The translations under genes and the position numbers were made by a program. This document shows positions 1,007 to 56,239 of a stretch of DNA of 64,000 nt, in pieces. Origin of the DNA: Candidatus Saccharimonadota bacterium (GTDB taxonomy: Bacteria > Patescibacteriota > Saccharimonadia > Saccharimonadales > Saccharimonadaceae); assembly GCA_017512095.1 (NCBI GenBank), contig JAFWHC010000003.1, positions 62,001-126,000 of the forward strand, given 5' to 3'. A model generated the notes under the pieces. It worked only from the letters and a program-made list of their open reading frames with translations. It was not told the origin of the DNA and did no database searches. Position 1 is the stretch's first letter. Every line of letters begins with the position of its first letter.

Positions 1007-1030
1007 AAATCATAAAAACGGAAAACAAGA

Positions 1031-2793: not shown

Positions 2794-3999
2794 ATGCGAG
2801 GAATTTGTCTTTATCTGCATATCCATCAACCATGGCGCGTTCGTGCCTACTCTATTTTCGATGTCGGCGTAAACGACAATTATTTTTTCGACTCAAATTA
2901 TCATTCAAAACAAAATAACGAACGTATCTTCCGTAAGGTTGCCGCAAAGAGCTATTTACCAACTTTTGACCTTCTAGAAAACAATTTAAAAAAGCACAAA
3001 GATTTTAAGTTTAGTTTGTCCATCACTGGCGTTTGGCTCGAACAAGCAGAAATGTGGATGCCAGAACTCATCACTCGTCTCCAAAATATGGTTAAAACCG
3101 GACGCGTCGAGCTTGTCGCCGAAACATATTATCATTCCATGTCTTTTTTCTACGACAAAGACGAATTTAAAGCTCAGGTAAAACAACAAGTCGCCACTTT
3201 CAAGCGTATTTTTAACATTACGCCTAAAGTTTTTCGCAACACCGAATTCTCTTACAATGATGAAGTCGGGCGTGTTGTCGAAGAACTTGGTTTTGATGCT
3301 TGTCTTGCCGAAGGTTGGGATAAGATTCTTGGCTGGCGCAGTCCAAACTTTGTCTACAAAGCTGCCGGCACGAAGAATTTAAAGCTCCTGCTTAAGAACT
3401 ACCGCCTTTCTGACGATATCGCCTTTCGCTTTTCTGATAAGTCATGGAAGGACTGGCCGCTCACCGTCGACAAATATGAAAAATGGCTCGACGACGCCTG
3501 CCTCGACGGCAATGTCATTAACCTCTTCATGGATTTTGAAACATTCGGCGAGCACCAATGGGCAGAGACGGGTATTTTCGACTTCATGAATCGACTTATC
3601 GACTCTTGGCTCAGTAAGTTTGATAATAAATTCCTCACGGTTTCTGAAGAAGCTGCCATGAAGCCCATCGGCGAAATCTCCTACCCTTGGACTGTCACCT
3701 GGGCCGACACCGAACGTGACTTATCCGCCTGGATGGGGAATAAACTCCAGGACGAGGCCATGTCTACTCTCTACAGCCTTCGTAAGAAAGTCCTCGAAGT
3801 TTCGAAAATTCGCAAAGATGAAAAAATCCTTGAAGATTTTCGCCGTCTCACGACATCAGACCACGCATATTATATGTGCACAAAATACTGGAATGATGGC
3901 GATGTTCATGCTTATTTTTCCGCCTATGATTCGCCATATGATGCATTTATGTATTTCCTAAATGCCCTTCGTAGTCTAGAATATAGACTAGATATATGA
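2794..3999 (+). CDS. Glycoside hydrolase family 57 alpha-amylase-like protein
   Basis: A 401-aa GH57 (alpha/beta)7-barrel enzyme. Family motif 1 is LHIHQP near the N-terminus. The candidate catalytic nucleophile Glu is in RNTEFSYND (about residue 152) and the acid/base Asp is in FMDFETFGEHQW (about residue 247). GH57 members include alpha-amylases, branching enzymes and 4-alpha-glucanotransferases. The HxHQP and NTE-type motifs fit the amylase/maltogenic group. There is no signal peptide, so it probably acts on intracellular glucan together with the upstream synthase-like GT4. The stop overlaps the next start in an ATGA arrangement, implying translational coupling. The exact specificity is uncertain. 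Confidence 0.85.
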   Translation: MRGICLYLHIHQPWRVRAYSIFDVGVNDNYFFDSNYHSKQNNERIFRKVAAKSYLPTFDLLENNLKKHKDFKFSLSITGVWLEQAEMWMPELITRLQNMVKTGRVELVAETYYHSMSFFYDKDEFKAQVKQQVATFKRIFNITPKVFRNTEFSYNDEVGRVVEELGFDACLAEGWDKILGWRSPNFVYKAAGTKNLKLLLKNYRLSDDIAFRFSDKSWKDWPLTVDKYEKWLDDACLDGNVINLFMDFETFGEHQWAETGIFDFMNRLIDSWLSKFDNKFLTVSEEAAMKPIGEISYPWTVTWADTERDLSAWMGNKLQDEAMSTLYSLRKKVLEVSKIRKDEKILEDFRRLTTSDHAYYMCTKYWNDGDVHAYFSAYDSPYDAFMYFLNALRSLEYRLDI

Positions 4000-5483
4000 A
4001 ATACGCGAAAAGACTTTTAATCTTTCTTTACAATCATCTTGAGTATGTTTTTGTCGCAGTTCTATTCATCGGGGTCTTTTACCTTGCATTTAATCATGGC
4101 TCATTTGCTATGCCCTATGCGTCGCTTGAAGACGACCCTAACTATTACGCAAATAAAATCTTCGACCAAAGCTATGTTCATAAAATCGAACTAAGTATTC
4201 CCGAGCGAGATCTTTCAAGCCTCCGCGCTAGCCCCGCCGAAAAAACTCGCTATCTCGCCGACGTTATCATTGACGGCGAAAGCTTTAAGAATGTTGCCTT
4301 CTCCACGCGGGGTAATGCTTCACTAACGGCACTAGCTGACAATGAAAACTCAGAGCGCTATAGCTACAAGGTGAACTTTGGCAAGTTCTCCGAACATAGC
4401 TCGTATCATGGTCTTGATAAACTTATTCTTAACAACCTTAATAGCGACCCAAGCTATCTAAAAGACTATCTCGCTTTCGAAATCATGCGCAACGCTGGTG
4501 TTGCCTCGCCTCTCACGTCTTTCACGGAACTATATATTAACGGCGAGCTACAAGGCCTCTATCAAGCCATTGAAGACGTCGACGAGTCCTTCTTAGCACG
4601 CAATCGCTTCTCGCCCGACGCTGTTCTTTACAAACCAGAGGCCACCGCAATCAACAACTTCGCAATGATGCGCTTGCGCGAGCAACTCCCCGAAGGCGTA
4701 GAACCCGATATTGTTACGTTTGCCGACATGCCCGGTTTTGACTTTGGCGGCTCGGATCTAGTTTATCATGGCGATGACCCTGCCGAATATCATGCAATTT
4801 TTGAAAACGCCGTCTCTAAAATTTCTCATCACGACGAAGAATATCTCATATCGAGCCTCCGCGCGCTCGAGCCCGCCGAAATGCTCGAACCAACGGACTA
4901 TTGGGACGTTGACGCACTTGCAAAATACTTCGCCGCAAATAACCTCCTCTCCAATTTTGATAGCTACACAGGCATCACGTCTCACAACTACTATCTTATC
5001 GCTAGCCCAAAGAGCAATACTCTCCTACCTTGGGACTACAACCTCGGTTTCGCCGGTCTTTGGCTTGACCCGGGAATCGACTATGATGAAGGTGTCATCA
5101 ACTGGCCAATCGACAGTCCAATCGCCACAAACCAAATAGAAACGAGACCAGCATGGCGACTAATTGTCGAGAATCCTGATTACTTAGAAAAATATCACCA
5201 ATCAATCCAAAACTTAATCAGCAACTATCTTCTCAACGGTGAATGTATCGGCGAAATTACCAAAACCGCTGAGCTAATTCGGAGCTATGTTTATTCTGAC
5301 CCTTCACGTTTCTATTCGATTGAGGAATTCGAAGATGGTGTCGAGATTTTGCGAAACTTTATTTTGGTCCGCGCCGACTCCGCGCAAAAACAACTCTGGG
5401 GCCTCATTCCTAGTACTCACGAAGAAGCTAAATCTGGCGACTTCGAGTCTATTCATCTAGACACTCCGCTCATTGACGAATAA
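3996..5483 (+). CDS. CotH-kinase-family membrane-anchored protein
   Basis: A 495-aa protein with an N-terminal membrane segment (about residues 17-34) and a large exported domain of the CotH family. Visible family features are the strand with FSTRGNAS (about residues 102-109), a central LNNLNSDPSYLKDYLA segment, and the late active-site motif LLPWDYNLGF (about residue 344), whose Asp is the metal-binding residue in CotH kinases. CotH proteins phosphorylate secreted proteins in spore-formers, and homologues lie in many non-sporulating bacteria. It overlaps the GH57 gene by ATGA. Coupling to glucan enzymes suggests it modifies, or helps export, a surface glycan or glycoprotein, but this is inference. 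The last gene of the operon ends at a convergent tRNA terminator. Confidence 0.75.
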   Translation: MKYAKRLLIFLYNHLEYVFVAVLFIGVFYLAFNHGSFAMPYASLEDDPNYYANKIFDQSYVHKIELSIPERDLSSLRASPAEKTRYLADVIIDGESFKNVAFSTRGNASLTALADNENSERYSYKVNFGKFSEHSSYHGLDKLILNNLNSDPSYLKDYLAFEIMRNAGVASPLTSFTELYINGELQGLYQAIEDVDESFLARNRFSPDAVLYKPEATAINNFAMMRLREQLPEGVEPDIVTFADMPGFDFGGSDLVYHGDDPAEYHAIFENAVSKISHHDEEYLISSLRALEPAEMLEPTDYWDVDALAKYFAANNLLSNFDSYTGITSHNYYLIASPKSNTLLPWDYNLGFAGLWLDPGIDYDEGVINWPIDSPIATNQIETRPAWRLIVENPDYLEKYHQSIQNLISNYLLNGECIGEITKTAELIRSYVYSDPSRFYSIEEFEDGVEILRNFILVRADSAQKQLWGLIPSTHEEAKSGDFESIHLDTPLIDE

Positions 5484-11077: not shown

Positions 11078-12730
11078 TTATTTCTTATAAATAACATATG
11101 GCGACGAATATGATCGACTAAAGAAAGTTTTATAAGCAACCGTAGAACTTCCGCTCGCGGCGTTAGTAACAACTACCTTATTATCTTTCGTAATTCCAAT
11201 AACAGTCACATAATGGCCGCCGGAAGTGTAAGGAGCGCCACTTTTGCCATAGAAAATGAGCGCATTTCCCTTACTAAGTTCGTTTCTAACTTGCTTAAGT
11301 TTATTATCAGCCGAGCCAGAAAGAGACAAAGTTCTGTAACCGACTTTACTCTTCAGCGTGCTGTAATTATTTATAATAAGCTTAATTTTGTCCCAACCGC
11401 CAGCGGTCCATCTGCCATCATACTTCACTTTCCCAATTTTTGTCTTTTCAGGATTACTAGATTGCTTTGGAGGGTTACTCTTGTCGCGCCCTAAAGTCCA
11501 GGCTGCGAGATTTTTAACGTAAGTATTCACATTTCCCACAACACCGAGGCGTTTAAGTGCGTTCACGGTAGCAATGAAGGAGCAGCCGCTAGTAGAGACG
11601 GACGACTTCGACGTCCAAGTTGTCTTATTGTATTTCCAATAAATCTTTCCATAATCGCTCTGCTTAGCGTAGCCAGAGGTGCTCTGGACCCCGACAGCCG
11701 TAGGCGAAGTCGGCGCCGTCGGAGTTGTTGGCTGCGTGGGCGTTGTCGGAACACTGCTTCCACCACAGTTTGAAGCACGCGTACAATAATTATTATAACT
11801 TGCAGGATAGGAACTTGACGGATATAGTGCCTTACAAATCGCACAGCGCGTCGCTTTTCCGACGCGGCCATTAATTCCGCTACTCCAAATCCCCTTATTC
11901 TTCTGGAATCTTGTCACAGCATCAGCAAGCTGTTGGTCATAAGTATTATTTGTGGTCGAAAAACTTGTCCCCATAAACTTATTCATACAGGCTCTAATCA
12001 CGCCAATATCACCATGCGTTTTCACATCACCGCTCTTCAGCCCATAAACCGTATTAGCATTCGACGGCAAAATTGGATTGCAAGACGGGCCATATTGAGC
12101 CCCAACGCCAAGAATCACATCCGCCGACAAAACACCGCTCCGATTCTTCGCGATACTAAGAGCACTGCCGTAATTCGCGGTCGCCGAACTATTAGCATCC
12201 AAGCTATTAACATAATCGCCAAAACTGAGTGGAGCATCATTAGAACCAGCAAGATATCTGCGGAAAATAATATAAGTCGACTGTTCAAGAGAATATTTAT
12301 TTAAATTCTCCGGCGTAAAGCCATTGTCGTTCATTTCCTTCAAAAGAAAGCGCACCTGCGTATTTATATCGAGCGGAGAAGTCTGTTCAGCGTCGGCAAA
12401 AGCTTTCAAGTTGTCCTTTCTCGCCCCAGTCCATTGCGCAAGCCCAATCGCTCCGTCATTCGGAAACTCCTCGATAGTTGAATCCGAGTCGCAGACGCCG
12501 TTTACAATCGTCGGATCGAATCTCCCGCAAGTCGCGACTGATATATTCCCAAGAATGGCATAGATGGTAGTCTCGCTATAGCCGGCATTCTCAAGCGCAG
12601 ACTCCAAAATCACTGAATTTGCATTCGGCGTATAAATAAACTCTTCGTCCTCTGCGTAAGCAGAAAGACTCGAAAACGCAACGAATATTAAAGTAAGACA
12701 CACTATAATGATATTTTTCTTCTTCATCAT
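11078..12730 (-). CDS. Secreted cell-wall hydrolase: lysozyme-like, PG-binding and C39-type peptidase domains
   Basis: A 550-aa modular exoenzyme. Residues 1-26 are a signal peptide (cleavage near SAYA). About 36-195 resembles the phage-tail-lysozyme domain (AIYAILGNIS..., NDGAIGLAQWTGARKDNL). About 230-300 is a PG_binding_1-like domain (GDIGVIRACMNKF, AVTRFQKNKG). About 326-346 is a Thr/Pro linker. About 350-550 is a C39-type cysteine peptidase with Cys383 (SGCSFIA), His506 (GGHYVTV) and a candidate Asn523. It probably cleaves peptidoglycan glycan and peptide bonds outside the cell, of itself or of a neighbour. The usual lysozyme Glu (ES in GNxxxESGFNP) is not seen; the stretch reads ATCGRFDP. 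The ATG lies 6 nt after TATAAT, so the message is probably leaderless. A membrane-protein gene follows. Confidence 0.8.
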   Translation of the reverse strand: MMKKKNIIIVCLTLIFVAFSSLSAYAEDEEFIYTPNANSVILESALENAGYSETTIYAILGNISVATCGRFDPTIVNGVCDSDSTIEEFPNDGAIGLAQWTGARKDNLKAFADAEQTSPLDINTQVRFLLKEMNDNGFTPENLNKYSLEQSTYIIFRRYLAGSNDAPLSFGDYVNSLDANSSATANYGSALSIAKNRSGVLSADVILGVGAQYGPSCNPILPSNANTVYGLKSGDVKTHGDIGVIRACMNKFMGTSFSTTNNTYDQQLADAVTRFQKNKGIWSSGINGRVGKATRCAICKALYPSSSYPASYNNYCTRASNCGGSSVPTTPTQPTTPTAPTSPTAVGVQSTSGYAKQSDYGKIYWKYNKTTWTSKSSVSTSGCSFIATVNALKRLGVVGNVNTYVKNLAAWTLGRDKSNPPKQSSNPEKTKIGKVKYDGRWTAGGWDKIKLIINNYSTLKSKVGYRTLSLSGSADNKLKQVRNELSKGNALIFYGKSGAPYTSGGHYVTVIGITKDNKVVVTNAASGSSTVAYKTFFSRSYSSPYVIYKK

Positions 12731-13799: not shown

Positions 13800-13825
13800 G
13801 GTCTTATACATAATTGAGAGTGTGT

Positions 13826-14503
13826 ATGAATAAAAAAGTTATTTTTAGCTTATTTAATCGTTTTCCGAGCTTTTTCTGTTCGCTCGCCTTATTTGGCTTC
13901 TTCACGTTAGCTGGACTCACGCAGAAGCTTAATCTTAACTTACCAAAAGAAGCTAAAGTTCGCGATGAAGTCTCTTTTTCGGGCACAGCTTTCCCAGCCG
14001 CAGAAAAACTCGATATTCGCTCCGGTTCGAAAGACATTGCCGTGTCATTTGCGGCTGCCGTTCCCGTTACGTCAAGAACCTACATAACCCCGCAAAACTC
14101 AAATCCCGTCTCTGTCGTGGCGCAACCGGTTAATTTTTCGATTGTTAATCCAACCCCCGTTAACAACCCCGCCATCGATGCCGGAAATAGCATCATGCGT
14201 TATATGACTTATGGTGGTCGCTTTCTCTACGCACATTCTTCGCGCGCATTCAGCCCCCTAAAATCAATCTATGAAGGCGGACAAATCACCGTCACGATGG
14301 ACGGTCAAACTGCGACCTATAAAATTGCCCTCAGAAAAGTTTTTGTTAAAGCAACCGAACTCGACAATAACTCGGCTCGCCGTCTTGCTCTCTATTCTTC
14401 CAAATATAATGGGCAATCTTATGATTTGACGCTCATGACTTGCGGTAACGGCTCAAATGATGACAGCAACTACCGCCTTGTCCTCTTTACTAATCGCGTT
14501 TAG
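13826..14503 (+). CDS. Sortase-family transpeptidase
   Basis: A 225-aa membrane-anchored protein. A hydrophobic segment (about residues 13-31) anchors a sortase domain (about 120-225). The catalytic triad is visible as His137 (FLYAHSS), Cys206 (LTLMTCG) and Arg217 (NYRLVLF), each in its sortase context. Sortases cleave a C-terminal sorting motif and join the protein to the wall or to pilin subunits. The start at 13826 (ATG, after GAGAG) is preferred over the in-frame TTG at 13814. The secreted protein at 45250 ends with PKAPNTG, a possible sorting motif. The Pro-rich stretch (about residues 90-115) between anchor and domain looks like a wall-spanning linker. The subclass is not assigned. Confidence 0.85.
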   Translation: MNKKVIFSLFNRFPSFFCSLALFGFFTLAGLTQKLNLNLPKEAKVRDEVSFSGTAFPAAEKLDIRSGSKDIAVSFAAAVPVTSRTYITPQNSNPVSVVAQPVNFSIVNPTPVNNPAIDAGNSIMRYMTYGGRFLYAHSSRAFSPLKSIYEGGQITVTMDGQTATYKIALRKVFVKATELDNNSARRLALYSSKYNGQSYDLTLMTCGNGSNDDSNYRLVLFTNRV

Positions 14504-31266: not shown

Positions 31267-31776
31267 ATGCATCTGGAGGTTAATAATAATTCTTCTGCTG
31301 GTGTTGGTCATAATCCGCAAGCAGGACAACAAAGAAAAATCTCTTTTTTGCGACTTTTTTCTGTCATTATAATCGTCGCCAGTTTAATTGCCGCGCTAGT
31401 AATCTTTTTGATTGTCCCGCTCATTAGCCGCGCCCAAAAAGAAGCCGCATATAGACAGGGGATCGCGGCGCAGATCGACGAAGAGCTTATGTCTATAAGG
31501 TTAGATGATATGATAAAGCTCCATTATGAAGTCGGCAACTATGACTCCGTCAGGCCATACATCGAAGAAACTTCTAACCTCTATTCGGATGGTTACGCTA
31601 AACTTGAAGCTCTCTCTGAGGTAAACGTCATCTTTCATGAATCTAACGACTGGTCTTCTCTTCGACAATTCTATGAATACATGCTAGGTATCGCTAAAGA
31701 ATATAAGCTCGACGAAGAAACGACCGAATTGTTTCGCAATCTGGTCCAGGAGGCAAAAAAGAATGAGCAAAAATAA
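31267..31776 (+). CDS. Bitopic membrane protein with TPR-like helices, partner of the 1628-aa surface protein
   Basis: A 169-aa protein. It has a Gln/Asn-rich N-terminus, a strong membrane helix (about residues 35-56: VIIIVASLIAALVIFLIVPL), a charged linker and a helical C-terminal region with repeat-like spacing (YEVGNYDSVRPYIEE, FHESNDWSSLRQFYEYM). The gene overlaps the start of the giant surface-protein gene by 14 nt, so the two are co-translated. It is one of four such proteins in the window (1031, 31267, 50917, 51586). It is likely to be a membrane partner for display or export of the surface protein; no catalytic motif is seen. Confidence 0.7.
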   Translation: MHLEVNNNSSAGVGHNPQAGQQRKISFLRLFSVIIIVASLIAALVIFLIVPLISRAQKEAAYRQGIAAQIDEELMSIRLDDMIKLHYEVGNYDSVRPYIEETSNLYSDGYAKLEALSEVNVIFHESNDWSSLRQFYEYMLGIAKEYKLDEETTELFRNLVQEAKKNEQK

Positions 31777-34700
31777 TATCAAAAGAATATTAATTTGCAG
31801 TCTCCTGGGTTTTTCTCTATTAGTTGCCCTCAAGCCCACCAATGCGCACGCTGGCCTGGTTGCCGGCGGCGGCGGCTCAAACCCTGGTGGAGGTGGTGCC
31901 AACGAAGGTTCTTGCGGCGGCAGCACGGGCATCGTCTGCCCAATGACACTTTGGGTTTATTATACTATTAACGACCGCTCCAGACCTGCCTATATTGGTT
32001 CGCACGCTCCATACGCTAGTTCAATTACAATTTCCGATTGCGGCCCCTACGGCGGCTTCTGGATTTATCAGCGTACTGCCAATGAAGCTGGCGATAAAGG
32101 CACTGCAAAATATCGCGTGGCTTCCGGCGCGCGCCAACGCAGTTCCTGGCTCAATGGCAATGCAACTTCAAGCACCATGATCCCACTAAAAGGCGTATGG
32201 AATGATGAGAACAGCAATGTTACTCCACAAATTCCAGGTTATCCTGACTGTGCCTCTAATAAGACGTGTGGGAAAGACGGCAGTTGGCCAGTTTCGGACG
32301 CCACCGTCCAAGGTTATTTTAGGGAGAATAATGGTGGCTCTACATATTGTACTATCGGCAGCTATAGCGGCGATTGCTTCGGCAGTAACAGCCCACTCAC
32401 TTATTTCTGCTACGGCGACGACCCGGAGCGGGAATTTACTCACAGCCTCTCGTATAACAAAAACACTACTGACTCCGTCTCTGGCATGCCTAGTGGCACT
32501 AGTTGCTCTTGTACAACTACAAATAGCAGTTGTTCTTGTAATGTTACTGTTTCAAGCAATACTCCGACGCGCGCAAATTATGCTTTTGCTGGTTGGAATA
32601 CCAGATCTGACGGCAGCGGCACGAACAAATCCGCAGGCAACTGGAGTATTAGCAACGATAAAACCCTATATGCAAAATGGCAACAATACACCCATACTCT
32701 CAAATACGATGCGTGCGCCGGATCTAAGCCTTCCGGAAAATTAGGCAACAATACTGTTAGCGACGGTAGCACGAGCCACACCTTCACCATAAGTAGCGAC
32801 AGACCGACTCCACCCACCGGCTATAAGTTCATTGGCTGGTCTACTGTTTCTTGCGATGGAGCAAAAAATAAAAATCCAGGCGACACGATTTCCGTCGGCA
32901 ACGAAACCAAAACCCTCTACGCCAAATACCAAGCCTACACTATCGCCACCTTCACGGCTCCAGAAATCACTATCACCTCATCTGAGCTTTCCAACATTTC
33001 TGGCAACAACTGGAAAGGCCTCGGTAACAAAACCAGTTACGCCGTCACGGCCACCTACCACGTCAAACGCACTAACGATACTCCCGCCAGCGCCACCTCG
33101 AACTATGGCACCCGTGGTGCCGCCTCAGATGATAATGTTTATCCGTCAAACGGGACCGCGAGCAACGCCTTAACCAATACTCAGCAACAAGACATTCCTA
33201 CATCATATACTGTAGCCGTCGATAACGGCTCCACTGCCGCCGCCTGCTTCTACTTTAAATACGACAGCAAAGTATATTATGACGGTACCACTCGCGTCGG
33301 CAGCGCAGAAACTTCCACCACTAAGAAATGCATCAGCGTCTATAACCCCGCGAAAAACAACGCTTCCTTCACTGGCTCCGTTAGTATTTCCAATGGCGAT
33401 GGGCTATCCGGTACCAGCACTTCTCGCACAGGCAGTGGCTACAAGTCCACTTTCACTGTCACGCCAAGCTACGCCATCACTCGCACCGACGGCCTCACGA
33501 CTCCGACCACCGCTTCCTCCGACTACGCCATAAACGCCACTTCTGCCGCCTATAACGCAAATAGCTATCCTGCCGACACGGCTACTAAAGCTAATACCGG
33601 CGCTCTCGGCATCGCCGCAACCGACAAGACCAAGTCTTGGTCTGGCTCCGCTTCGACCGTCAACATCGACATTGGCAGCTCCGCCCAGAACCGTTGCTTC
33701 TACCTCCGTTACGACACCTCAGTCCTTTACTACGACAATGACCGATACTCCGGCAACTTCGCTGGTAAGACCTATGATTGCGTTTCTATCACCAACCCCG
33801 CTAATACCACTTCCATCTCCTTTACGGGGAACACCACAAACGGCACCATCACCGCAAATGACCGCGTCATCAGGAGCGACAGCAACCGTGTCGGCACCCT
33901 CAATAACCACGACCGCACCACGACCGGCAACGACGACGTAGTTGGCGAATGGGTTGACAATACGACCGTCATCAATGGCACCTACACGGCAGATTTCTCC
34001 CATAGTATTACACGAAGCGACGCCTCAGCGACCATCCTCGGCAAGACTATGAACGCTTCCGTATCTTGGAAGGTTCAAGAAATCTTCCCGGCTACCGCTC
34101 CATCTTGGAACGCCTCGGCAGGCACTTGGACTGTCCCAACGACCAGTACCGCTAACTGGACCGATTACGCCACTTCCCGTGATAATAAGTCCAGTAGTGT
34201 TTCCGGCACAGCCAGTCTTGGCGCCTCTGGCTCAACCACCATCACTACCCAGCCTAAGCTCACCGCCACTCACGGACAAATCCGCTACTACTGTCAGCGC
34301 CTTCTTTACACGCCAACCACCAACTATACGACCTATACGATTGACGATAGAAACGACTATGGCGTCAAAATCAGCTCCTATGCTACCGCCACTGCGACCA
34401 GCCCACTTTGCGTCACCCTCAAGAACCCGGTCTGGTCAGAAACCGACAGCACTATCCTGCCGCACCTCATCGATGTCACTCCAACCATAGGAAACACCGA
34501 ATACGCTGCTAACACCTTCAGCCAATCCGGCAACGCCCACGAAACTCTCGTCGTCAACCCAACTATCTACGTCCACCATAGCGTTTCTCGCAGTGACAAC
34601 AAGAACGCTCCGGAAAGCTACGACGAATCCGACGCAAACTACAACGGCAACGTCCTGTTCGGCAGCGGCGCCAACAAGAAGTTTTGGCAAAGTTCGATTT

Positions 34701-36649
34701 ATAGCCAAACTGCCTGCACCAGCAAATACTGGGGCACCAACAGTTCCAACCAGAACGCCCGGGCTATCGACGGCAAGTGTAAGGTTATCACTAATCTTTC
34801 CGGCTACGAACGAATCGTTGGTTTCGATGCTTCCGCCGCCCTTGTTCCGGTCATGGGTGGGCGTTCAACCGATGGCGCTCTCGCCATCCAGCTTGGCGCA
34901 ACCAGCAAAACTGCCGGCGACACTTGGAACTCAACCAAGACCAGCGGCGCTTCCCGCCTCAACTTCAACGCCACCGGACTCAACAAATACTCCATTATGG
35001 CCGGACAAACTCGAGAGTTTACCATCCACTCTTCGGTTCGCCACACCCGCTGGACATATAATTACAAGAAGATTAATCTCCATGAATATTACACCAAGAA
35101 TGGCACCGTAACCGAGCGCATTGCTGGCGCCACTACTTTTGACCGCATAGAAAAAGTCCAGAGCACTACATCGAGTCCAAACCCAGCTCCCGCCACCAAC
35201 CCCGCTCATCTCGAATCCAGTCCGGTTACGTTCTCCGTCACCCGACCTTATAACTTCAAAATTACTGACGCTGCCTATTCCAGCGATGCTTCAGGTTCTG
35301 GCGGCTATATCACCTATGATGATGACAACTTGCAGGTCAACTTTACCATTAATATCGGCAAAGAAAACAACACCCACGCCTACATCACCGATCCAAACCA
35401 CACCACAAACTCTCGCTATGTTTACCCTGTCACTTATGTCATTCCAGCCTCTACAAGTGCAAGTACCATCAACGGCAACGCCTCCGGCGTCCATAGCGGC
35501 GTCGAGAGCGATATCTGTGCGCACTTTAACGGAATCGCAAAGGCTGGCAGCTGCTCGCTCCACACCGAATCTGCTCAGCCAAATAAGCTCAGCGCCGTCG
35601 CTGGTGCTACGACCTTCAATCCGAACAGCACCCCCACTGGTGCCGTGGTCGATACCATCTTCCGCCACGTCTACGATGCAACTAGTTACACGTTAAGCTA
35701 CCGCACCGGCACCATCAAGGTCCAGAACGCCGACGGTTCACCACTCGGTGCTGGCGAGAAGTTCTGCGTCGCTATCGCAATCAAGAACTACAGCTCCGCT
35801 TCTAACGCCTACTTCGTGTCCTCTTCCACCTGTCGCAACGTCAGTAAGCGTCCTTCCTTCCAAGCTTGGGGCGGCTCAGTCATTACGGACGGTGGTATCG
35901 ACACTTCCGAATCAACCTACGCAAACAAACGCTTTGGCTCTTGGGCCGACTTCGCCATCACCGCCAACAAGGAAGTCAAGCGCATGAACTCTGGTGCTTC
36001 GACCATCAGCGGCATCGCCACCAGCAGCTCCATCTGCAATCGCAGTCCGCTTACCATCGCCAACCAAAACTGCGACAGATCGGAAAAGACGCTCGGCTAC
36101 GCCAGTATCGACGCAAGAGGTAGCTTTATAGAAAAAGTTCTCAGCTACTTCACGAGCAACGCCACCCTAAACGACTTATCTTCAAGATCAGACGGTAAAG
36201 GCACCGTCCCAAACAGAACCTACATTATTCGCAACGAAAACAGCGACTTCACCATCGACACCAACATCTACAATGACTACGCTGACTCTCAAATCATCAT
36301 CATTGCGAAAAACATCAACATCAAGTCGAACGTTACCCGCGTCGACGCCTTGCTCATCGCTACCGGCGTAAACAACGCTGGCGGAACTATCGACACCTGC
36401 TCCAACATCGCCGATAGTGCGCTTTCCGCCAGGAACTGCACAAACATGCTAAAGGTCAACGGACAGCTCGTCGCCGGCAATATCAAGTTCAAACGCACTA
36501 GCGGTGGCGACCCAGCCACAAACAGCCTCACGAATCCCGCAGAGCTCACGAACTATGCCCCTTCAACCATCATCTGGGGAGGTCACAAGTCTATGTCCGA
36601 AGCCAACCCACGAACCGTCTTCGTCCATAAGATTCCCACCAGATTCTAA
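31763..36649 (+). CDS. Giant secreted surface protein (1628 aa) with InlB repeats and a shared C-terminal domain
   Basis: Signal peptide about residues 1-30 (hydrophobic ILICSLLGFSLLVAL, cleavage near AHA), then a Gly-rich linker. Two InlB B-type repeats lie around residues 225-390 (FAGWNTRSDGSG...LYAKW and FIGWSTV...LYAKY). From about 390 to 1340 run several ~120-130-residue beta-rich units. Each tends to carry a TRTD/SRSD-type motif and a CFYxxYDS or CQRLLY strand, ending in CV(S/T)I.NP. A C-terminal domain of about 267 residues (from FQAWGG) is shared with the 1317-aa protein at 52286. There is no LPxTG motif or C-terminal membrane helix. AGGAGG precedes the ATG within the upstream gene. 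Adhesin or structural-filament roles are inferred. Confidence 0.8.
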   Translation: MSKNNIKRILICSLLGFSLLVALKPTNAHAGLVAGGGGSNPGGGGANEGSCGGSTGIVCPMTLWVYYTINDRSRPAYIGSHAPYASSITISDCGPYGGFWIYQRTANEAGDKGTAKYRVASGARQRSSWLNGNATSSTMIPLKGVWNDENSNVTPQIPGYPDCASNKTCGKDGSWPVSDATVQGYFRENNGGSTYCTIGSYSGDCFGSNSPLTYFCYGDDPEREFTHSLSYNKNTTDSVSGMPSGTSCSCTTTNSSCSCNVTVSSNTPTRANYAFAGWNTRSDGSGTNKSAGNWSISNDKTLYAKWQQYTHTLKYDACAGSKPSGKLGNNTVSDGSTSHTFTISSDRPTPPTGYKFIGWSTVSCDGAKNKNPGDTISVGNETKTLYAKYQAYTIATFTAPEITITSSELSNISGNNWKGLGNKTSYAVTATYHVKRTNDTPASATSNYGTRGAASDDNVYPSNGTASNALTNTQQQDIPTSYTVAVDNGSTAAACFYFKYDSKVYYDGTTRVGSAETSTTKKCISVYNPAKNNASFTGSVSISNGDGLSGTSTSRTGSGYKSTFTVTPSYAITRTDGLTTPTTASSDYAINATSAAYNANSYPADTATKANTGALGIAATDKTKSWSGSASTVNIDIGSSAQNRCFYLRYDTSVLYYDNDRYSGNFAGKTYDCVSITNPANTTSISFTGNTTNGTITANDRVIRSDSNRVGTLNNHDRTTTGNDDVVGEWVDNTTVINGTYTADFSHSITRSDASATILGKTMNASVSWKVQEIFPATAPSWNASAGTWTVPTTSTANWTDYATSRDNKSSSVSGTASLGASGSTTITTQPKLTATHGQIRYYCQRLLYTPTTNYTTYTIDDRNDYGVKISSYATATATSPLCVTLKNPVWSETDSTILPHLIDVTPTIGNTEYAANTFSQSGNAHETLVVNPTIYVHHSVSRSDNKNAPESYDESDANYNGNVLFGSGANKKFWQSSIYSQTACTSKYWGTNSSNQNARAIDGKCKVITNLSGYERIVGFDASAALVPVMGGRSTDGALAIQLGATSKTAGDTWNSTKTSGASRLNFNATGLNKYSIMAGQTREFTIHSSVRHTRWTYNYKKINLHEYYTKNGTVTERIAGATTFDRIEKVQSTTSSPNPAPATNPAHLESSPVTFSVTRPYNFKITDAAYSSDASGSGGYITYDDDNLQVNFTINIGKENNTHAYITDPNHTTNSRYVYPVTYVIPASTSASTINGNASGVHSGVESDICAHFNGIAKAGSCSLHTESAQPNKLSAVAGATTFNPNSTPTGAVVDTIFRHVYDATSYTLSYRTGTIKVQNADGSPLGAGEKFCVAIAIKNYSSASNAYFVSSSTCRNVSKRPSFQAWGGSVITDGGIDTSESTYANKRFGSWADFAITANKEVKRMNSGASTISGIATSSSICNRSPLTIANQNCDRSEKTLGYASIDARGSFIEKVLSYFTSNATLNDLSSRSDGKGTVPNRTYIIRNENSDFTIDTNIYNDYADSQIIIIAKNINIKSNVTRVDALLIATGVNNAGGTIDTCSNIADSALSARNCTNMLKVNGQLVAGNIKFKRTSGGDPATNSLTNPAELTNYAPSTIIWGGHKSMSEANPRTVFVHKIPTRF

Positions 36650-45249: not shown

Positions 45250-46716
45250 ATGAAAAGATTCTTTCTCTCCTTGCTTTTGTCACTAAGCTTAATTTTTACG
45301 CCCTTTGCGCAACCAGTCGCAGCATCCGACCGCCTCGTCCAAATCGGCTCTGGCGAAACCGCAATTTTTCTCACTCCTGACGCGCCCTATTATCAAAATC
45401 ATCAAGCAGCAGAAAGCAGCGACATTTCGACAGACGATTCGTGTACGGCATACTTCGATTTTTCGGATTGGTGGTTCCCGAGCTTATACCTTAAAAACTA
45501 TCAAGACGACGCCATCTACGTTCGCGGCGGTTCCTTCCAGTCGGTCCACGTCAAACTCAGTGGCGAGAACCAAATCACCACGACGGGAGAGTATGGCATT
45601 AATGTCAGCGTAAACTATTTCTACATCGAAAACAGTCATCCAGAATTGTCGCCCGCCAGTCTCACGATTAACGTAAATTCGTCGACCACACGCGCCAACG
45701 CCATCATCAATGAGGCTGGCGACGTTAGTCTGGAGGAAAAAACCGATGCCACATTTAACGTTAATTCGACGCTCCCGGCAGAAAATAATAGCACCGACGA
45801 AGTCACCGGCATCACCACACCTGCCGACAAAAACGTCACCATATACATGAATGATAACCTAATCATTAACAATCCAACCGGCAGCTTCGGGATTTATACT
45901 GGGCATTTCTACGCCGTCCAGGCACAAATTGGCGGCGAGAACTACGGCTACCGACCATTCGCCACCATCACGCACAAGATTAACGACGGCTTCGGCAACG
46001 CCTTTTTAAACAACGACTTTGAAGATAGCACACTCGCCAGCGATCCAAAAATCATCGCCACGCAACCAGAATATACTTTTCGACACGACAAAACCGCCAC
46101 TCTCGGCACGTTTAAGCTTCTGCCCGCCGTCCGCGGTTTTTCTGCAAACTATGACGACACGCTCGAAGACGGCGAAAATTTTGATTCCGCCGAGGCTCGC
46201 ATTATTAGCTCCCTCGTTAAGGAGCTTCATCCTGAAACTATCACCGACCTCGCTTGTCTCTCGGAACTTGAAGGACTCTGTCCGTACAACCCCAACCTTT
46301 TCGAAATCGACAAAACCAAAACCGAGCTTGTTATTGCTAAAGACGTACACTCTGGCACATACCGCAACAACAGCGAAGCGACAATCTCCGCTGAAGAAAA
46401 CTATGCGCTAAAAATCCACTTCCGCGTTGCCGACCCAAAGAACTATGCCTTTTCCAAAATTGACACCGTCGCGCCCATGTCGGCCGGCATTCTTAACGGC
46501 CTCGAAACCGCTAATTATCATATTGACGGCCCCGCCCGCGTTTATCTTTCACCCGAAGAAATCTACATCCTCGCCCCGCTCACTGTCCGTTCTGCATTCG
46601 CAGTTACATCTGAACCAGAGCCAGAAGAAAAGACAGAAGAACAAGTAACAGAAATCATACAAGACACGGATAAAACCATTATTCCTAAAGCCCCAAACAC
46701 CGGCGTTGTGTTATAA
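45250..46716 (+). CDS. Secreted protein with a C-terminal PNTG-like motif
   Basis: A 488-aa protein. A signal peptide (about residues 1-25, cleavage near PVAA) is followed by a beta-rich region with repeated short strands (IYVRGGSFQSVHVKLSGENQITT type), then domains that resemble no known family. The C-terminus is a Glu/Thr-rich stretch (PEPEEKTEEQ) followed by PKAPNTGVVL and the stop. PKAPNTG resembles a sortase-type sorting motif, but the membrane helix and basic tail that normally follow are missing. The protein is therefore either truncated or not sortase-processed. The stop codon lies in the -10 of tdk. Its role at the surface is unknown. Confidence 0.7.
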   Translation: MKRFFLSLLLSLSLIFTPFAQPVAASDRLVQIGSGETAIFLTPDAPYYQNHQAAESSDISTDDSCTAYFDFSDWWFPSLYLKNYQDDAIYVRGGSFQSVHVKLSGENQITTTGEYGINVSVNYFYIENSHPELSPASLTINVNSSTTRANAIINEAGDVSLEEKTDATFNVNSTLPAENNSTDEVTGITTPADKNVTIYMNDNLIINNPTGSFGIYTGHFYAVQAQIGGENYGYRPFATITHKINDGFGNAFLNNDFEDSTLASDPKIIATQPEYTFRHDKTATLGTFKLLPAVRGFSANYDDTLEDGENFDSAEARIISSLVKELHPETITDLACLSELEGLCPYNPNLFEIDKTKTELVIAKDVHSGTYRNNSEATISAEENYALKIHFRVADPKNYAFSKIDTVAPMSAGILNGLETANYHIDGPARVYLSPEEIYILAPLTVRSAFAVTSEPEPEEKTEEQVTEIIQDTDKTIIPKAPNTGVVL

Positions 46717-50916: not shown

Positions 50917-51519
50917 ATGCACGAGCAAAATTCTTTTTCTAATTTAAACACGCCCGATCGCGGCGAAGCAATAATCTCCAGCAGCGCGGAGCAAAAATCA
51001 ATTCCCGCTGCCGGAAACAATTTTGGCGCCATTGCCCCGAGCCAACCGCCCAAAGACAAAAAACCTCTCGACCTTAAAGTTATCTTTATCGCCATCGCCG
51101 CCGCCTTAGTCGGTGCTGGCATTGCAGTCGCCGTTGTTCTAATCGTCAATAACCTCAATAATCGAGAAGAAGGAGAAACCACGGAAATTACCTACTCCTC
51201 TCCCGACAACGACGGCACCAAACAGAACGAAGAAGTTATTGCCGAATACGACAAAAAAATCGCCGAAACCAGCGATAAAGAAGTTGAACTCGGGCTCACA
51301 CTCAACAAGGCTGGCTATTATAATCTTATCGAGGACTACGACTCCGCCATATCAGTCCTACAAGGAATCGACGTCTCAAGTTTAGACAACTTTGACCAAT
51401 ATCGCGTCTATAATTACTTCTCGACTGCCTACGAAGGCAAAGGCAACTCGGCCGAAGCTAGCCGCTATCACCAACTCGCGGAAGAAGCTAACGCTCGCGA
51501 TTTCCAAGTTACAGAATAA
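50917..51519 (+). CDS. Bitopic membrane protein with TPR-like C-terminus
   Basis: A 200-aa protein. It has a polar N-terminus, a membrane helix (about residues 53-75), a charged linker and a TPR-like end (AGYYNLIEDYDSAISVLQGI, YNYFSTAYEGKGNSAEASRYHQLAEEA). It shares the layout of the small membrane proteins at 1031, 31267 and 51586, with the closest repeat resemblance to the 1031 protein. It is the only one without an adjacent surface-protein gene of its own, unless it belongs to the module beginning at 51586. A -10 TATAAT ends 11 nt before the ATG. A strong terminator follows. Confidence 0.7.
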   Translation: MHEQNSFSNLNTPDRGEAIISSSAEQKSIPAAGNNFGAIAPSQPPKDKKPLDLKVIFIAIAAALVGAGIAVAVVLIVNNLNNREEGETTEITYSSPDNDGTKQNEEVIAEYDKKIAETSDKEVELGLTLNKAGYYNLIEDYDSAISVLQGIDVSSLDNFDQYRVYNYFSTAYEGKGNSAEASRYHQLAEEANARDFQVTE

Positions 51520-51527
51520 GGACAAAG

Positions 51528-51561
51528 AAATCCCGTAAAATCATCATTTACGGGATTTTTT
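51528..51561 (+). terminator. Terminator of the 200-aa membrane-protein gene
   Basis: Perfect 12-bp stem AAATCCCGTAAA/TTTACGGGATTT with a 7-nt loop and a T-run. Confidence 0.92.
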
Positions 51562-51566
51562 GTGCG

Positions 51567-51575
51567 TGATATAAT
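51567..51575 (+). promoter_or_regulatory. Extended -10 promoter of surface-protein module 3
   Basis: TGaTATAAT, 10 nt before the ATG at 51586. Confidence 0.6.
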
Positions 51576-51585
51576 TATAAGCAGT

Positions 51586-52293
51586 ATGGAAGGTGATACA
51601 AAAAAGGGTAATCTTGAGTCGCCGGTTAAAAAACCGCTTGTTTTTCATAGCCAGAATATCGCCGACACGAAGGCTAAGGAAAAACGCGAAGTCTTCACAA
51701 AAGTTGAAGAAAAAAAGACTTTTAAACAAAGCGCTGAGGAGTTCCAAAAAAAGTTCGCCGAGGCCAAAGCTCACGCTGCCGAATCTCGCGCGCGAATCGA
51801 GAATCCAGGCGCCGACGCAAATGGTGTTATTCGCTCGCACAAACGTTTCAATATCAACTGGAAACTCGTCCGCCGTATCACCATTCCGGTCATCATCGTC
51901 GCCGGCCTTGCTGCTGCAGTGTATTTTAACTGGGGCGCTATTCACCATGAGTTTTTCGAAGTCTCCGAATCCCGCGCCCAGGAATTCTTGCCCGACAATC
52001 CTGAACGGTTTATCGCCATGTATGACAAAATCATTGACGAAGCAGAAACAGAAGACTCAAAAATCGAGCTTCTCTTCAATCGCGTCGCCATTCTTGACTC
52101 AACATACGGTAGTCAGTTTTCTAAACAAATTTTAAACGACTCCTACAGAGCATATGAAATCTTACCTTGCTACGAGACCGCCCTGCAAATCATTGAAAAA
52201 GAAGAAAAATATGGCACGACAGAAAAAGCATCCGAATGGAGCGCAAAGCTCGAAACTTTAGAAAGGGAAGGATTGATTCTCGGCAATGGATAG
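51586..52293 (+). CDS. Bitopic membrane protein, partner of the 1317-aa surface protein
   Basis: A 235-aa protein. It has a longer, charged cytoplasmic N-terminus (about 95 residues, Lys/Glu-rich), a membrane helix (about residues 100-122: ITIPVIIVAGLAAAVYF) and a helical extracytoplasmic part with TPR-like character (FIAMYDKIIDEAETEDSKIELLFNRVAIL). The ATG at 51586 is preferred to an upstream in-frame GTG. It overlaps the giant surface-protein gene by 8 nt (ATGGATAG), so it is translated together with it. Role: probable membrane partner, function unknown. Confidence 0.7.
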   Translation: MEGDTKKGNLESPVKKPLVFHSQNIADTKAKEKREVFTKVEEKKTFKQSAEEFQKKFAEAKAHAAESRARIENPGADANGVIRSHKRFNINWKLVRRITIPVIIVAGLAAAVYFNWGAIHHEFFEVSESRAQEFLPDNPERFIAMYDKIIDEAETEDSKIELLFNRVAILDSTYGSQFSKQILNDSYRAYEILPCYETALQIIEKEEKYGTTEKASEWSAKLETLEREGLILGNG

Positions 52294-55200
52294 GCATAGA
52301 ATACTATTATTTACATTCGGCATTATTGCATCGGCGTTAGTTCTAAATACACAAAACGTCTTCGCTGATTATAAAAGCGACTGTAAAAGCGCCGCAGCTG
52401 CGAAATATGGCAACAGGTACACCGTCCATCAGGCAACCTTTGACTCAAGATGCGAGAGTCAGGGCGGAAACGGCAATTATGGCACCGCAGTCCCAGAGTA
52501 TACCGATTATCCTGAGTGGACAAGGCTCTCAGGTAGCAATCTTAGTTTTAGCATCCGTCGCGTTACTTATTCAATTGGCTCCAATAGTTATAATACAGGA
52601 GACAACCTAAGCGGTTGCATAGAAAACAATGTCCCCAACGCAACGATTAGCGGCAGTCCAATGGAACTAATGACTATCAAACCTGGCACGAGAAGAACCT
52701 GGATCGGAACCGGCACTTATCATGTCGGAATGTCAGCGTCAGCAGTTAAGGGCGGGTGGTCAAACTGGGACGACGGCGGCACAGCCACAGTAAGTTTTGA
52801 TCCAGGCGCCGCTAGTGCCGCTGCTAGAGTGAACTCGGAAGGACTTGTCGAAAATTCCTTCAACATCACGACTCACCTGTATTGTTATGACAACAAAAGC
52901 AATGACAACACAATCTATTACAAATACTACAAAATAACCGAAATACAACATAGCAGCACCCCCTCCGTAGCTTACAAGGGAACCACGGTTGGAAGCACAA
53001 GCAGCGGCGCCCCAATCACTGTGGAGGACGGTAAGCTTACCTTTACCCACGCGCTAAAAAGGAACGATGGCTGGACCAATCCATCATCCGCAAACTTATC
53101 CAATCTTTATAAAAGAAAAATCACCGTCAGCGGAACGGCGGTACGGCAAGATTCAAATTGGCAATCAAAATCACTAGCCTCAGGAGGAACCTTCGCGAAC
53201 GTTACTGACGAAATCGATACGTCATCGCTAAACCTGCAACCAAATGTCGCTACAGAAGTCTGCTCGACTCTCACTCACCGCAAAGTCAAAGGTCTCCATG
53301 GGCATACCGCCTATGCCGATAGCGAGACAAACGTCGACACAAGCACCGTCTGCGTCTGGGTCAAAGACGATCGTATCTTCCTCACGCCGAACTCCCGCTC
53401 TTCTGTCGACAACAGCATCAACGGCAACAAAAGCGCCACCACCGGCAACACAGAAACCCTCGATGCCTACGGCGGCTCCCGCGGGGCAACCAAAACTTTC
53501 ACATTCAGCTTTGTTCACCAACTCAAAGTCTCCGGTAGCTCAAGCTACTCCAGAGCAATCGACTATTACGTCGAGCGCAGCGTCAACGGCGGTTCGTCTT
53601 GGTCTGCTGTAGCCAACGAGGGCACAAGCGGTTCGCCCAAATCACTCACGGTCAACGGCGACAACACCTATGTCACCGCAGAAACCAACACCTGGGTCTC
53701 TGACCCCATTGCTCAAGGTTCAGCCACGCCAACCGTCTGCGAGCGCATTACTTTCCGACCTAAACAAGTTGAGGTAAAAGTTAGCACCGGCGTTCAAACC
53801 GTCACCGACAACAACTGGCAGACTTCCACCGTCTGTTCTATCGTCCGACGTCGTTCGCCAAAATCAGTCAACCTTACTGCTGAATCCCATGTCTGGGTCG
53901 ACGGCGCAAACAAAGATGCTGCCTCACCAGTTTATAGTGTGAATAGTCCTCGCTCTATCCAGTTTAAGTTTGACATCAAAAACGCTGACGGTAGCAATCG
54001 TGCACTATCAACCAATTACGTCATCGAACGCATTGTCTACGCCGCCGGCGGCTCCGAAGACTGGTCACAAAAGACCGACGTCAAATCCGGCAACAATATC
54101 GCTACGCCAACCTCAAGCCCCATCACCGAGACCTTCAACATTACTATCGACCCCGGCACTTCCAAGACCATCTGCGAACGCATCAAGCTTAATCCTTATC
54201 AGTTCAAAATCCATCTCGATGGCAACAATAATGAAGAAGGTTCGCCGGAATCCGTTGTTGGCGATGGCTGGTTTGCCAAACGTTGTGTTACGATCGCTCG
54301 CCCCGCTCTCACTTGGCGCGACGACGGCGACATCGAAGTCTTCTCCGAGTCCTCCGGCGCTCTCGACAATCCTTCCCAAACTGGCGGCACGGTCAACATC
54401 AGTGGCACCACCGCCTATCTCCTCAAAACCGCTTCCGCCGACATCACCTACACGCACAAGCTTTGGCGCAATGCAGAAAAGCACACTGGCGACGGCACCC
54501 ATCAAGCAGATGTCATTAGCCCCGACGAAGATGTTACCGTCGAATACCGTTTTGCCGACCCAGCTACTACCTTCACCGCCACGTCTATCAAAAGCGCCGT
54601 CACCCTGCCATCTCACGCTATCGCCACCAACACCGCCAGCAGTAAATATTCTTTCCGAAGCAACCGCACTGACCCACTTCTCAACACCAACACTCAGGCT
54701 ACCGCCAGCGAAGTCGGCACGCTCTATGAACAGTGTCAAACTATCGACTATCTCTCAAAAACATACACGCTTCAAGGCCGTTATTGGGAAGTTGACGGAG
54801 AAATCTATAGCGGCAACCCCGACATCCAGGGCGTCGGCACGCCTGCCAGCAAAAACACTGTTGGCAAATCTGCGAGGGGCTGCGTCAACGTCATCCGTCC
54901 CTGGAACTTTAAAGCTACCGGCCTAACCTCAAACGACGATATTAGTAAGCCCGTCACCGTCGGCTCCAGCCAACGCATCAAGTTCGACCTTTCCGTCGGC
55001 AAAAACGATGCTAGCTACATGATTACCGACATTCCAAACGCCACCATCCGTTTTGTCGCTTTCACTGCCTTTGGCGAGGTCGCTTCACTCAATTTCAGCG
55101 GCAGTCTCGACACTGCAAACGACCCCTGCAGCCATTTTGCTAGTCAAATTGCCGGTATTAACTGTAACACACTTGAGGAACGCATTAACCAAAACCTCGG

Positions 55201-56239
55201 CCCCGCCGGCGCCACCGGTAAAAAGTTCTATTCGTCAAATAACTATGACGTTACCATCCAGTCCAACAACTTCACCATCCCTGACCTCGCCACCAACGAT
55301 AAGTATTGTCTCGCCGTCGGCGTTAAACCCGCAAACAGCGGCGATGGGTTCAACATGAGCAGCAACTGGGTCGTTTCCAGCGCTTCCTGCTTCAACATCG
55401 GTAAATATCCAAACTTCCAAGCTTGGGGCGGCGGCATCTTTACAAACGGCGGCACTAAGACCTCTCGCACGACCATCGAGAACAAATCTTATGGCTCATG
55501 GACCGACTTCGCTATCATCGCGAACAAATCCGTCCTAGAAACCGGCTCCGGCGCTTCACTCATCTCCGGTCTAGAAAGCCACACCGATTGCAAGCTATCT
55601 CCGCTCACTATCGCAAATGACAACTGCAGCGGCGTCAACACCTCTCGCCCTGCCCTTGGTGGCGCGAGCATCAGCGTTGCGACGGCCAACTTCAAGCAAA
55701 AGCTCGCCGACCATTATCTCAACGACGTCCAAAACTACACCGTCACATCAGAAATCAACACCGAATCCCTAAACGGCACTGCCAGAAACCCCCGCTTCTT
55801 CTATAATCCCGACGGCGACATCTATATCAGCGCCAACATCATGCCATCAAGCTACACTACCCGCAGCTATGGCAATCCCAACATTCCTCAGGTTATCGTC
55901 TACGCCAAAAACGGCAACATCCTCATTAACGAGAACGTCAATAACATCCAAGCCTGGCTCATCGCCGACAAGCAAATCAACACTTGCGTCAACAGTAGCA
56001 AGGTAACCCCGCCCTTAAGCGCCAGCACTTGTAAAGAGCCACTTGTTATTGGCGGACCAGTCGTCGCGGAAAAAGTCCTCATGAACCGCACCTATGGCGC
56101 CGACGCCCACACAAACACCTTGCCAAATTACGCTGAACTCGTCAACCTCTCTGGCGCCGTTTATCTCTTCTCGGCCAACGAAGCCTCCGGCGCCCAGCCC
56201 GTCACGACCTACCTCCAGAAGCTCCCGCCAAGGTACTAG
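52286..56239 (+). CDS. Giant secreted surface protein (1317 aa) with shared C-terminal domain
   Basis: A signal peptide (about residues 1-28, cleavage near FADY) is followed by a Cys-containing N-terminal region. Repeated beta-rich units of about 110-120 residues follow (about residues 230-900). Several end in VCERI.F.P or ICERIKLNP, a GW/NW strand, and CVTIARP-like Cys-x-Ile-x-Arg-Pro. The last ~277 residues (from FQAWGGGIF) align with the end of the 1628-aa protein: GSWTDFAI, GASLISGL, LTIANDNC, IVYAKNGNILI, INTCV, PLVIGGPVVAE, RTYGAD and a final PPRY. There is no LPxTG motif or C-terminal helix. It starts by overlap with the membrane partner gene. Function is unknown; surface display is inferred. 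Confidence 0.8.
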   Translation: MDRHRILLFTFGIIASALVLNTQNVFADYKSDCKSAAAAKYGNRYTVHQATFDSRCESQGGNGNYGTAVPEYTDYPEWTRLSGSNLSFSIRRVTYSIGSNSYNTGDNLSGCIENNVPNATISGSPMELMTIKPGTRRTWIGTGTYHVGMSASAVKGGWSNWDDGGTATVSFDPGAASAAARVNSEGLVENSFNITTHLYCYDNKSNDNTIYYKYYKITEIQHSSTPSVAYKGTTVGSTSSGAPITVEDGKLTFTHALKRNDGWTNPSSANLSNLYKRKITVSGTAVRQDSNWQSKSLASGGTFANVTDEIDTSSLNLQPNVATEVCSTLTHRKVKGLHGHTAYADSETNVDTSTVCVWVKDDRIFLTPNSRSSVDNSINGNKSATTGNTETLDAYGGSRGATKTFTFSFVHQLKVSGSSSYSRAIDYYVERSVNGGSSWSAVANEGTSGSPKSLTVNGDNTYVTAETNTWVSDPIAQGSATPTVCERITFRPKQVEVKVSTGVQTVTDNNWQTSTVCSIVRRRSPKSVNLTAESHVWVDGANKDAASPVYSVNSPRSIQFKFDIKNADGSNRALSTNYVIERIVYAAGGSEDWSQKTDVKSGNNIATPTSSPITETFNITIDPGTSKTICERIKLNPYQFKIHLDGNNNEEGSPESVVGDGWFAKRCVTIARPALTWRDDGDIEVFSESSGALDNPSQTGGTVNISGTTAYLLKTASADITYTHKLWRNAEKHTGDGTHQADVISPDEDVTVEYRFADPATTFTATSIKSAVTLPSHAIATNTASSKYSFRSNRTDPLLNTNTQATASEVGTLYEQCQTIDYLSKTYTLQGRYWEVDGEIYSGNPDIQGVGTPASKNTVGKSARGCVNVIRPWNFKATGLTSNDDISKPVTVGSSQRIKFDLSVGKNDASYMITDIPNATIRFVAFTAFGEVASLNFSGSLDTANDPCSHFASQIAGINCNTLEERINQNLGPAGATGKKFYSSNNYDVTIQSNNFTIPDLATNDKYCLAVGVKPANSGDGFNMSSNWVVSSASCFNIGKYPNFQAWGGGIFTNGGTKTSRTTIENKSYGSWTDFAIIANKSVLETGSGASLISGLESHTDCKLSPLTIANDNCSGVNTSRPALGGASISVATANFKQKLADHYLNDVQNYTVTSEINTESLNGTARNPRFFYNPDGDIYISANIMPSSYTTRSYGNPNIPQVIVYAKNGNILINENVNNIQAWLIADKQINTCVNSSKVTPPLSASTCKEPLVIGGPVVAEKVLMNRTYGADAHTNTLPNYAELVNLSGAVYLFSANEASGAQPVTTYLQKLPPRY

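Follow-up and report, generated by a model that had tools for sequence, protein, structure and literature searches.

PilY1 is a large, Sec-exported protein with a variable N-terminus and a conserved C-terminus, a layout shared by the two giant proteins, P0002 and P0004, described here. The giants also resemble PilY1/PilC in that, in rumen relatives, they are large Sec-exported proteins encoded together with minor pilins. This PilY1/PilC trait, the proximity to genes of minor pilins or of the pilus machinery, was found in relatives but not in the genus to which the window belongs (the window being the whole 64,000-nucleotide stretch of DNA that was analyzed). PilY1 has a beta-propeller (PMC12206443). 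For the giants, a terminal beta-solenoid is predicted instead, and searches of their C-terminus against Pfam and NCBIfam detected no PilY1-type domain.

A second related system is ComZ, the competence tip pilin of Thermus thermophilus (PDB 6qvi). The authors of the ComZ study identified an ice-binding protein as the closest relative of its solenoid and argued that ComZ fits only at the pilus tip (PMC6561018). ComZ and the giants have in common a large beta-solenoid of the ice-binding type within a pilus-linked protein, that of the giants being a predicted model. However, ComZ is a pilin carrying an inserted solenoid, whereas P0002 and P0004 start with a Sec-type leader, lack a pilin domain and carry their predicted solenoid at the C-terminus, after a long N-terminal stalk. 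Accordingly, the class III prepilin leader and pilin domain typical of ComZ were absent from both giants by inspection. By their defining features, the giants are thus outside the PilY1 and ComZ families; they may work like them.

Tapirins of Caldicellulosiruptor are adhesins linked to pilus loci. Their fold (PDB 4wa0, 6n2b) gave a weak, partial structural match to the model of the giants, with Z-scores of 5.4-5.7 that correspond to the background level, and they bind cellulose, unlike the role proposed here for the giants. A limited literature search found no paper dealing jointly with tapirins and type IV pili. Within Saccharibacteria, PilX2 of Nanosynbacter lyticus TM7x is also a large pilus-associated candidate adhesin. 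It has no predicted PilD leader and is needed for full host binding; it is a pilin-like lollipop bearing an RCC1 beta-propeller and does not belong to the solenoid family of the giants (PMC12206443). DUF3494 ice-binding proteins are similar to the giants in the predicted solenoid fold (Z up to 11.2), but at the sequence level the giants match none of the curated families, and there is no reason to expect ice binding. Finally, the TPR-type small partners of the giants may share with the Sec-associated E. coli protein YfgM a build of a single N-terminal transmembrane (TM) helix followed by an outward TPR domain. YfgM, like PpiD, works at the Sec translocon (PMC9643414). The partners differ from YfgM in being dedicated, with an overlapping gene for each giant.

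Two giant secreted proteins with a common C-terminal region

The original prediction described a small membrane protein gene overlapping by 14 nt with that of a giant secreted protein. The open reading frames of P0001 (31267-31776, + strand) and P0002 (31763-36649, + strand, 1628 aa) indeed overlap by 14 nt. By inspection, P0002 starts with a Sec-type leader, KRILICSLLGFSLLVALKPTNAHA, corresponding to a signal peptide at about residues 1-30 (31763-31852, + strand) ending in NAHA, in agreement with the predicted secretion. Two InlB/Listeria-Bacteroides repeats (PF09479) were matched in P0002, the better one at 32543-32677 (+ strand, E 5e-11). The conserved C-terminal region, residues 1159-1628 (35237-36646, + strand), was delineated by homology and modeling; it comprises one putative Ig/FN3-like sandwich, then a predicted beta-solenoid at about residues 1359-1628 (35837-36646, + strand, alignment and model), ending in IPTRF.

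A second giant, P0004 (1317 aa), is encoded at 52286-56239 on the + strand and also begins, by inspection, with a Sec-type leader. Its conserved C-terminal region (54890-56236, + strand) is homologous to that of P0002: residues 869-1317 of P0004 and 1159-1628 of P0002 align over 495 columns with 32% identity (E 2e-48). Because the two giants share this C-terminus of about 470 aa, the pair genuinely recurs at 51562-56239. A search of the genome retrieved only these two copies of the domain.

Neither giant carries an LPXTG-like motif, a C-terminal TM segment or a basic tail; they end in IPTRF and LPPRY, respectively. The predicted lack of a sortase signature is therefore true of the giants themselves, although the window does contain a sortase-domain protein (13814-14503, + strand; PF04203, E 6e-8, above the cut-off). 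Separately, a secreted 488-aa protein encoded at 45250-46716 (+ strand) has a C-terminus, IIPKAPNTGVVL, that is sortase-motif-like and lacks the usual membrane tail; perhaps this protein is truncated, or else serves as a substrate for the sortase encoded at 13814. Other genes of the window encode a secreted 550-aa protein (11078-12730, - strand) that matches phage-tail-lysozyme, C39-like peptidase and, weakly, peptidoglycan-binding families, a candidate wall hydrolase, and a CotH kinase-like protein with an N-terminal TM segment (3996-5483, + strand, E 4e-58) whose gene adjoins two genes of carbohydrate-metabolism type.

Using a profile of the two C-termini of the window, the domain was found in 169 of 199 genomes of Saccharimonadaceae. 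With a 31-member profile, most full-length matches fell inside the family and the order, those further afield being partial and weak. A partial match to the solenoid, in a genome of the same class (G288, contig C2 near 316141), lies inside a 25,343-aa open frame. The 31-member alignment displays invariant Cys and Gly positions, a near-invariant Trp and the terminal consensus ELPPRF/Y; being too diverse for the degenerate-pattern search, it was replaced there by eight typical rows. The giants' C-terminus had no Pfam or NCBIfam family match and no PDB sequence match, and none of the 31 members matched the DUF3494 Pfam family at E up to 0.1. As judged from these comparisons, it defines an uncurated protein family. 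The N-terminal part of the giants is more variable than the C-terminus (mean identity 30% versus 45%). An HMM built from the last stalk module, used to count the modules, mostly gave a single strong unit per stalk, the other units being weak.

The model of the P0002 C-terminal region had an overall pLDDT of 69.8, with values mostly of 85-97 further along the solenoid. Its structural matches were led by ice-binding beta-solenoids (Z 11.2, 150-159 residues, 2.8-2.9 Å) and included ComZ of Thermus (Z 9.7, 193 residues, 4.4 Å); rows below these fell to 6.4. The region preceding the solenoid matched FN3/Ig-like sandwiches at Z about 6, inside the background. The solenoid match came from the second aligner used. 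Foldseek returned nothing at E 0.001 or better with this model, so the likeness to a solenoid is stated at the level of prediction.

Small membrane proteins encoded beside the giants

P0001 (169 aa) has one hydrophobic TM helix at about residues 19-68. In its AlphaFold model (33-row alignment, pLDDT 87.5), five more helices follow. Helices 72-88/92-103 and 109-125/129-145 form two TPR-like hairpins, capped by helix 150-168. Positive residues preceding the TM helix, seen by inspection, place this TPR-like domain probably outside the cell. The best PDB matches of the model were mostly TPR domains with Z-scores of 9.6-12, values that helical repeats reach easily, and the alignment given to AlphaFold included TPR relatives, many of its rows being TPR proteins. 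On sequence alone, 241 of 1000 shuffles of P0001 scored as well as P0001 itself against TPR. The TPR-like nature of P0001 is thus a matter of structure prediction. Of the bitopic TPR-like protein originally described, the single TM helix is borne out and the TPR character holds for the predicted fold, the sequence doing no better than its shuffles.

The partner of P0004, P0003, is encoded at 51562-52293 (+ strand; 243 aa from the GTG codon, or 235 aa from the ATG at 51586). It is a single-TM helical protein whose gene overlaps that of P0004 by 8 nt, so the recurrence predicted at 51586-56239 holds: P0004 is homologous to P0002 and has a single-TM partner of its own. P0003 is weakly TPR-like, with an E-value of 0.003 in profile comparison and none of 1000 shuffles as good. 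Just upstream, at 50917-51519 (+ strand), lies the gene of a 200-aa single-TM protein that is clearly TPR. Aligned by hhalign to the profile of the relatives' TPR partners, it gave a probability of 95.6% and E 1e-8, and again none of 1000 shuffles was as good. The presence of this second single-TM TPR-like protein makes the P0004 locus (50917-56239) a triple.

At the left end of the window (2-1495), the pairing had been predicted to recur in reversed order. The open reading frame at 2-1006 (+ strand) is the tail of an 850-aa protein starting outside the window (L004:10454-13006). According to flanking sequence, Pfam and homology, its residues 13-267 are a minor pilin with 33-37% identity to minor pilins of relatives (L080:12639-13505, 37%, E 2e-44; L087:11690-12538, 33%, E 1e-38), followed by four InlB-type repeats (E 1e-37). 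It does not carry the C-terminal domain of the giants, of which the genome search gave two copies only. The left-end pair was therefore rejected as a third giant, and the predicted recurrence fails there, the large partner being a minor pilin different from the giants. The small protein next to it, P0006 (1031-1495, + strand, 154 aa), is homologous to the protein at 50917-51519 (E 3e-8). Hence, in this organism, small single-TM proteins accompany both Sec-type giants and a repeat-bearing minor pilin.

We then examined 59 complete giants in relatives, using 854 genes of the same loci as controls. A gene for a protein of 100-350 aa with a single N-terminal TM segment, directly upstream on the same strand, was present for 38 of 59 giants versus 122 of 854 controls (Fisher 8e-17). 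When proteins down to 80 aa and with a TM segment further in, as in P0003, were admitted, the counts rose to 44 of 59 versus 138 of 854 (Fisher 5e-21). The commonest spacings between the small gene and the giant gene were overlaps of 1, 4 and 8 nt. In a Pfam scan, four of ten upstream proteins had TPR matches above the cut-off (best 4e-12). TPR_21, the YfgM-type domain, was also above the cut-off in three of these four (L045, L065, L093) and in none of the small proteins of the window. E. coli YfgM matched the profile of the relatives' partners with an E-value of 2e-5.

The pairing is not uniform. In three lineages (L079, L084 and L092), one of them oral taxon 348, the extracytoplasmic part of the partner is of another kind; Pfam gave a weak SurA_N signal for the oral one, L092. 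An assignment of these non-TPR partners to PpiD was rejected, hhalign giving no significant result. A search of 98 further genomes of the genus gave no good match to P0001, which had no profile match to the partners of relatives either, and a single conserved family of small partners was rejected on this basis. This lack of P0001 relatives indicates that the small partner evolves fast or gets replaced. The orthologous giant of the sister genome G169 (L099) occupies the corresponding position, with the two femAB-like genes on one side and ftsZ on the other, but has no adjoining small gene. The giant of G134 is likewise solitary. Overall, the gene-order comparison indicates that a membrane TPR-type protein with a giant secreted protein is a real module conserved in Saccharimonadales. 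The repeatable cell-surface pair of the original prediction is upheld; when searched for in other TM7 genomes it recurs, but it is not obligatory. The attachment to a host cell considered there would be in keeping with such a module.

Genomic association with type IV pilus genes

In 37 of 58 loci, the giant gene is directly followed by pilM (PilM Pfam 3e-41), then by pilN and pilO. The pair thus opens a pilM-pilN-pilO operon in most relatives. In these loci, efp, an FtsJ-like gene and ychF usually lie on the other side of the pair. The adjacency of giant and pilM agrees in nine more genomes (G007, G008, G013, G015, G017, G023, G029, G036 and G038) in which positions were compared, some of which may equal assemblies already counted as loci. 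Comparing the presence of PilM with that of the giant was uninformative as a test, PilM-type matches being found in 32 of 32 genomes tested.

A different arrangement was observed in rumen and related genomes (L076, L080, L081, L087). There, three prepilin genes and a PilX-like gene lie downstream of the giant, either immediately next to it or with one short gene intervening. The prepilin leaders are of the GFT/GDT..E type (for instance RGFTIIEV, RGDTIIEV and KGFTLVEL); one of these prepilins scores above the cut-off of N_methyl, and three others have matches under that threshold. The genes following the giant in these four loci look like a compact minor-pilin operon.

In the genome of the window, efp and the FtsJ-like gene are directly followed by pilM-pilN-pilO, the pair being missing between them, and then, past one gene, by pilB-pilT-pilC. 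In its genus, the pair is not adjacent to pilus genes. From these gene orders, the pair appears to have left the pilus locus in this genus, so that a pilus role here draws on the evidence from relatives. The pilus context was overlooked at first reading because other genomes were needed to see it. In three loci of the same genus (L102, L106, L108), a ychF-like GTPase gene was observed no more than about 6 kb from the relocated giants, which may be a remnant of the relocation. The copies away from pilM, which come from the window, its genus, and genomes of rumen and termite gut, cluster together in a tree of the C-terminal domain (support 100/99). The giants not linked to pilM measure 884-1893 aa, versus mostly 560-880 aa for the linked ones.

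Possible role of the pair

We propose, with a probability of roughly 55%, that the giant is a type IV pilus-associated adhesin, probably located at the tip, with a membrane-anchored TPR partner for export or assembly. The parts of this proposal differ in strength. The association of the giants with pili is well supported by two separate arguments from gene order and one from the predicted fold. Their location at the tip is putative, and a chaperone role of the small partner is proposed by analogy with the YfgM-like build. Host binding would fit the epibiotic life style, the role of pili in TM7x (PMC12206443) and the essential envelope proteins of Southlakia (PMC10633639). In such a mechanism, the giant would be exported via Sec and consist of a long stalk, made up of variable beta-sandwich and InlB-type repeat modules, and a conserved beta-solenoid end. 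The solenoid would probably dock on, or form, a minor-pilin tip complex, and the variable N-terminal part would reach the host cell. No pilin domain was found in the giant, and docking of the solenoid on pilins is put forward as a proposal. The small protein would be anchored by its one TM helix with the TPR-like domain outside. Acting in a YfgM-like way, it would most likely hold or fold the giant leaving the Sec channel and pass it to the pilus base.

Alternatively, the giant could be a free-standing surface adhesin tethered by the small TPR protein, the pilus neighborhood of the relatives being historical and without a working link. The position of the giants in the window genus, away from pilus loci and grouped in the tree with the other unlinked copies, would agree with this, as would an anchored partner encoded by an overlapping gene beside a giant with no other visible anchor. 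However, such a reading leaves aside two separate neighborhoods, pilMNO next to the giant in environmental relatives and minor pilins next to it in those of the rumen, as well as the ComZ-like predicted solenoid, and it would leave some giants with no adjoining small gene to tether them. We consider it doubtful. It is unlikely that the giant, instead of being a host adhesin, serves the pilus as a receptor for DNA or nutrients, the part played by ComZ in competence; the closest functionally studied structural match is this DNA-binding tip pilin (PMC6561018), but a structural match does not carry function. Moreover, the giants lack a pilin domain, and their very long modular stalk and InlB-type repeats favor cell binding. 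Beta-solenoids are common in polysaccharide lyases, and a polysaccharide-active solenoid is one form that a secreted enzyme or envelope scaffold could take. Such a giant, served by a general secretion chaperone as the resemblance of TPR_21 partners to the Sec translocation helper YfgM (PMC9643414) might suggest, is the least probable case, since no enzyme family match was found with Pfam or NCBIfam, the structural comparison was led by ice-binding proteins without enzymatic activity and by ComZ, and the gene order is specific to pilus genes.

Returning to a pilus-associated adhesin, we tentatively extend the proposal to the whole order. Saccharimonadales could possess an undescribed class of pilus tip in which a Sec-secreted solenoid giant replaces PilY1 and a dedicated TPR (or SurA-like) chaperone, encoded upstream of pilM, loads the giant. 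In animal-associated lineages, the module might have escaped from the pilM operon, multiplied and lengthened, yielding a swappable host-recognition head.

In Saccharibacteria, pili are essential and aid host binding (PMC10633639, PMC12206443). How these bacteria recognize and hold their hosts is largely unknown, and a conserved giant with a variable outer part, encoded in a pilus operon together with a membrane partner, is a concrete candidate for the recognition head. The list of giant and partner genes can be tested in species for which genetics is now established. The pair is probably part of the grappling hook with which Saccharibacteria catch their host bacteria.
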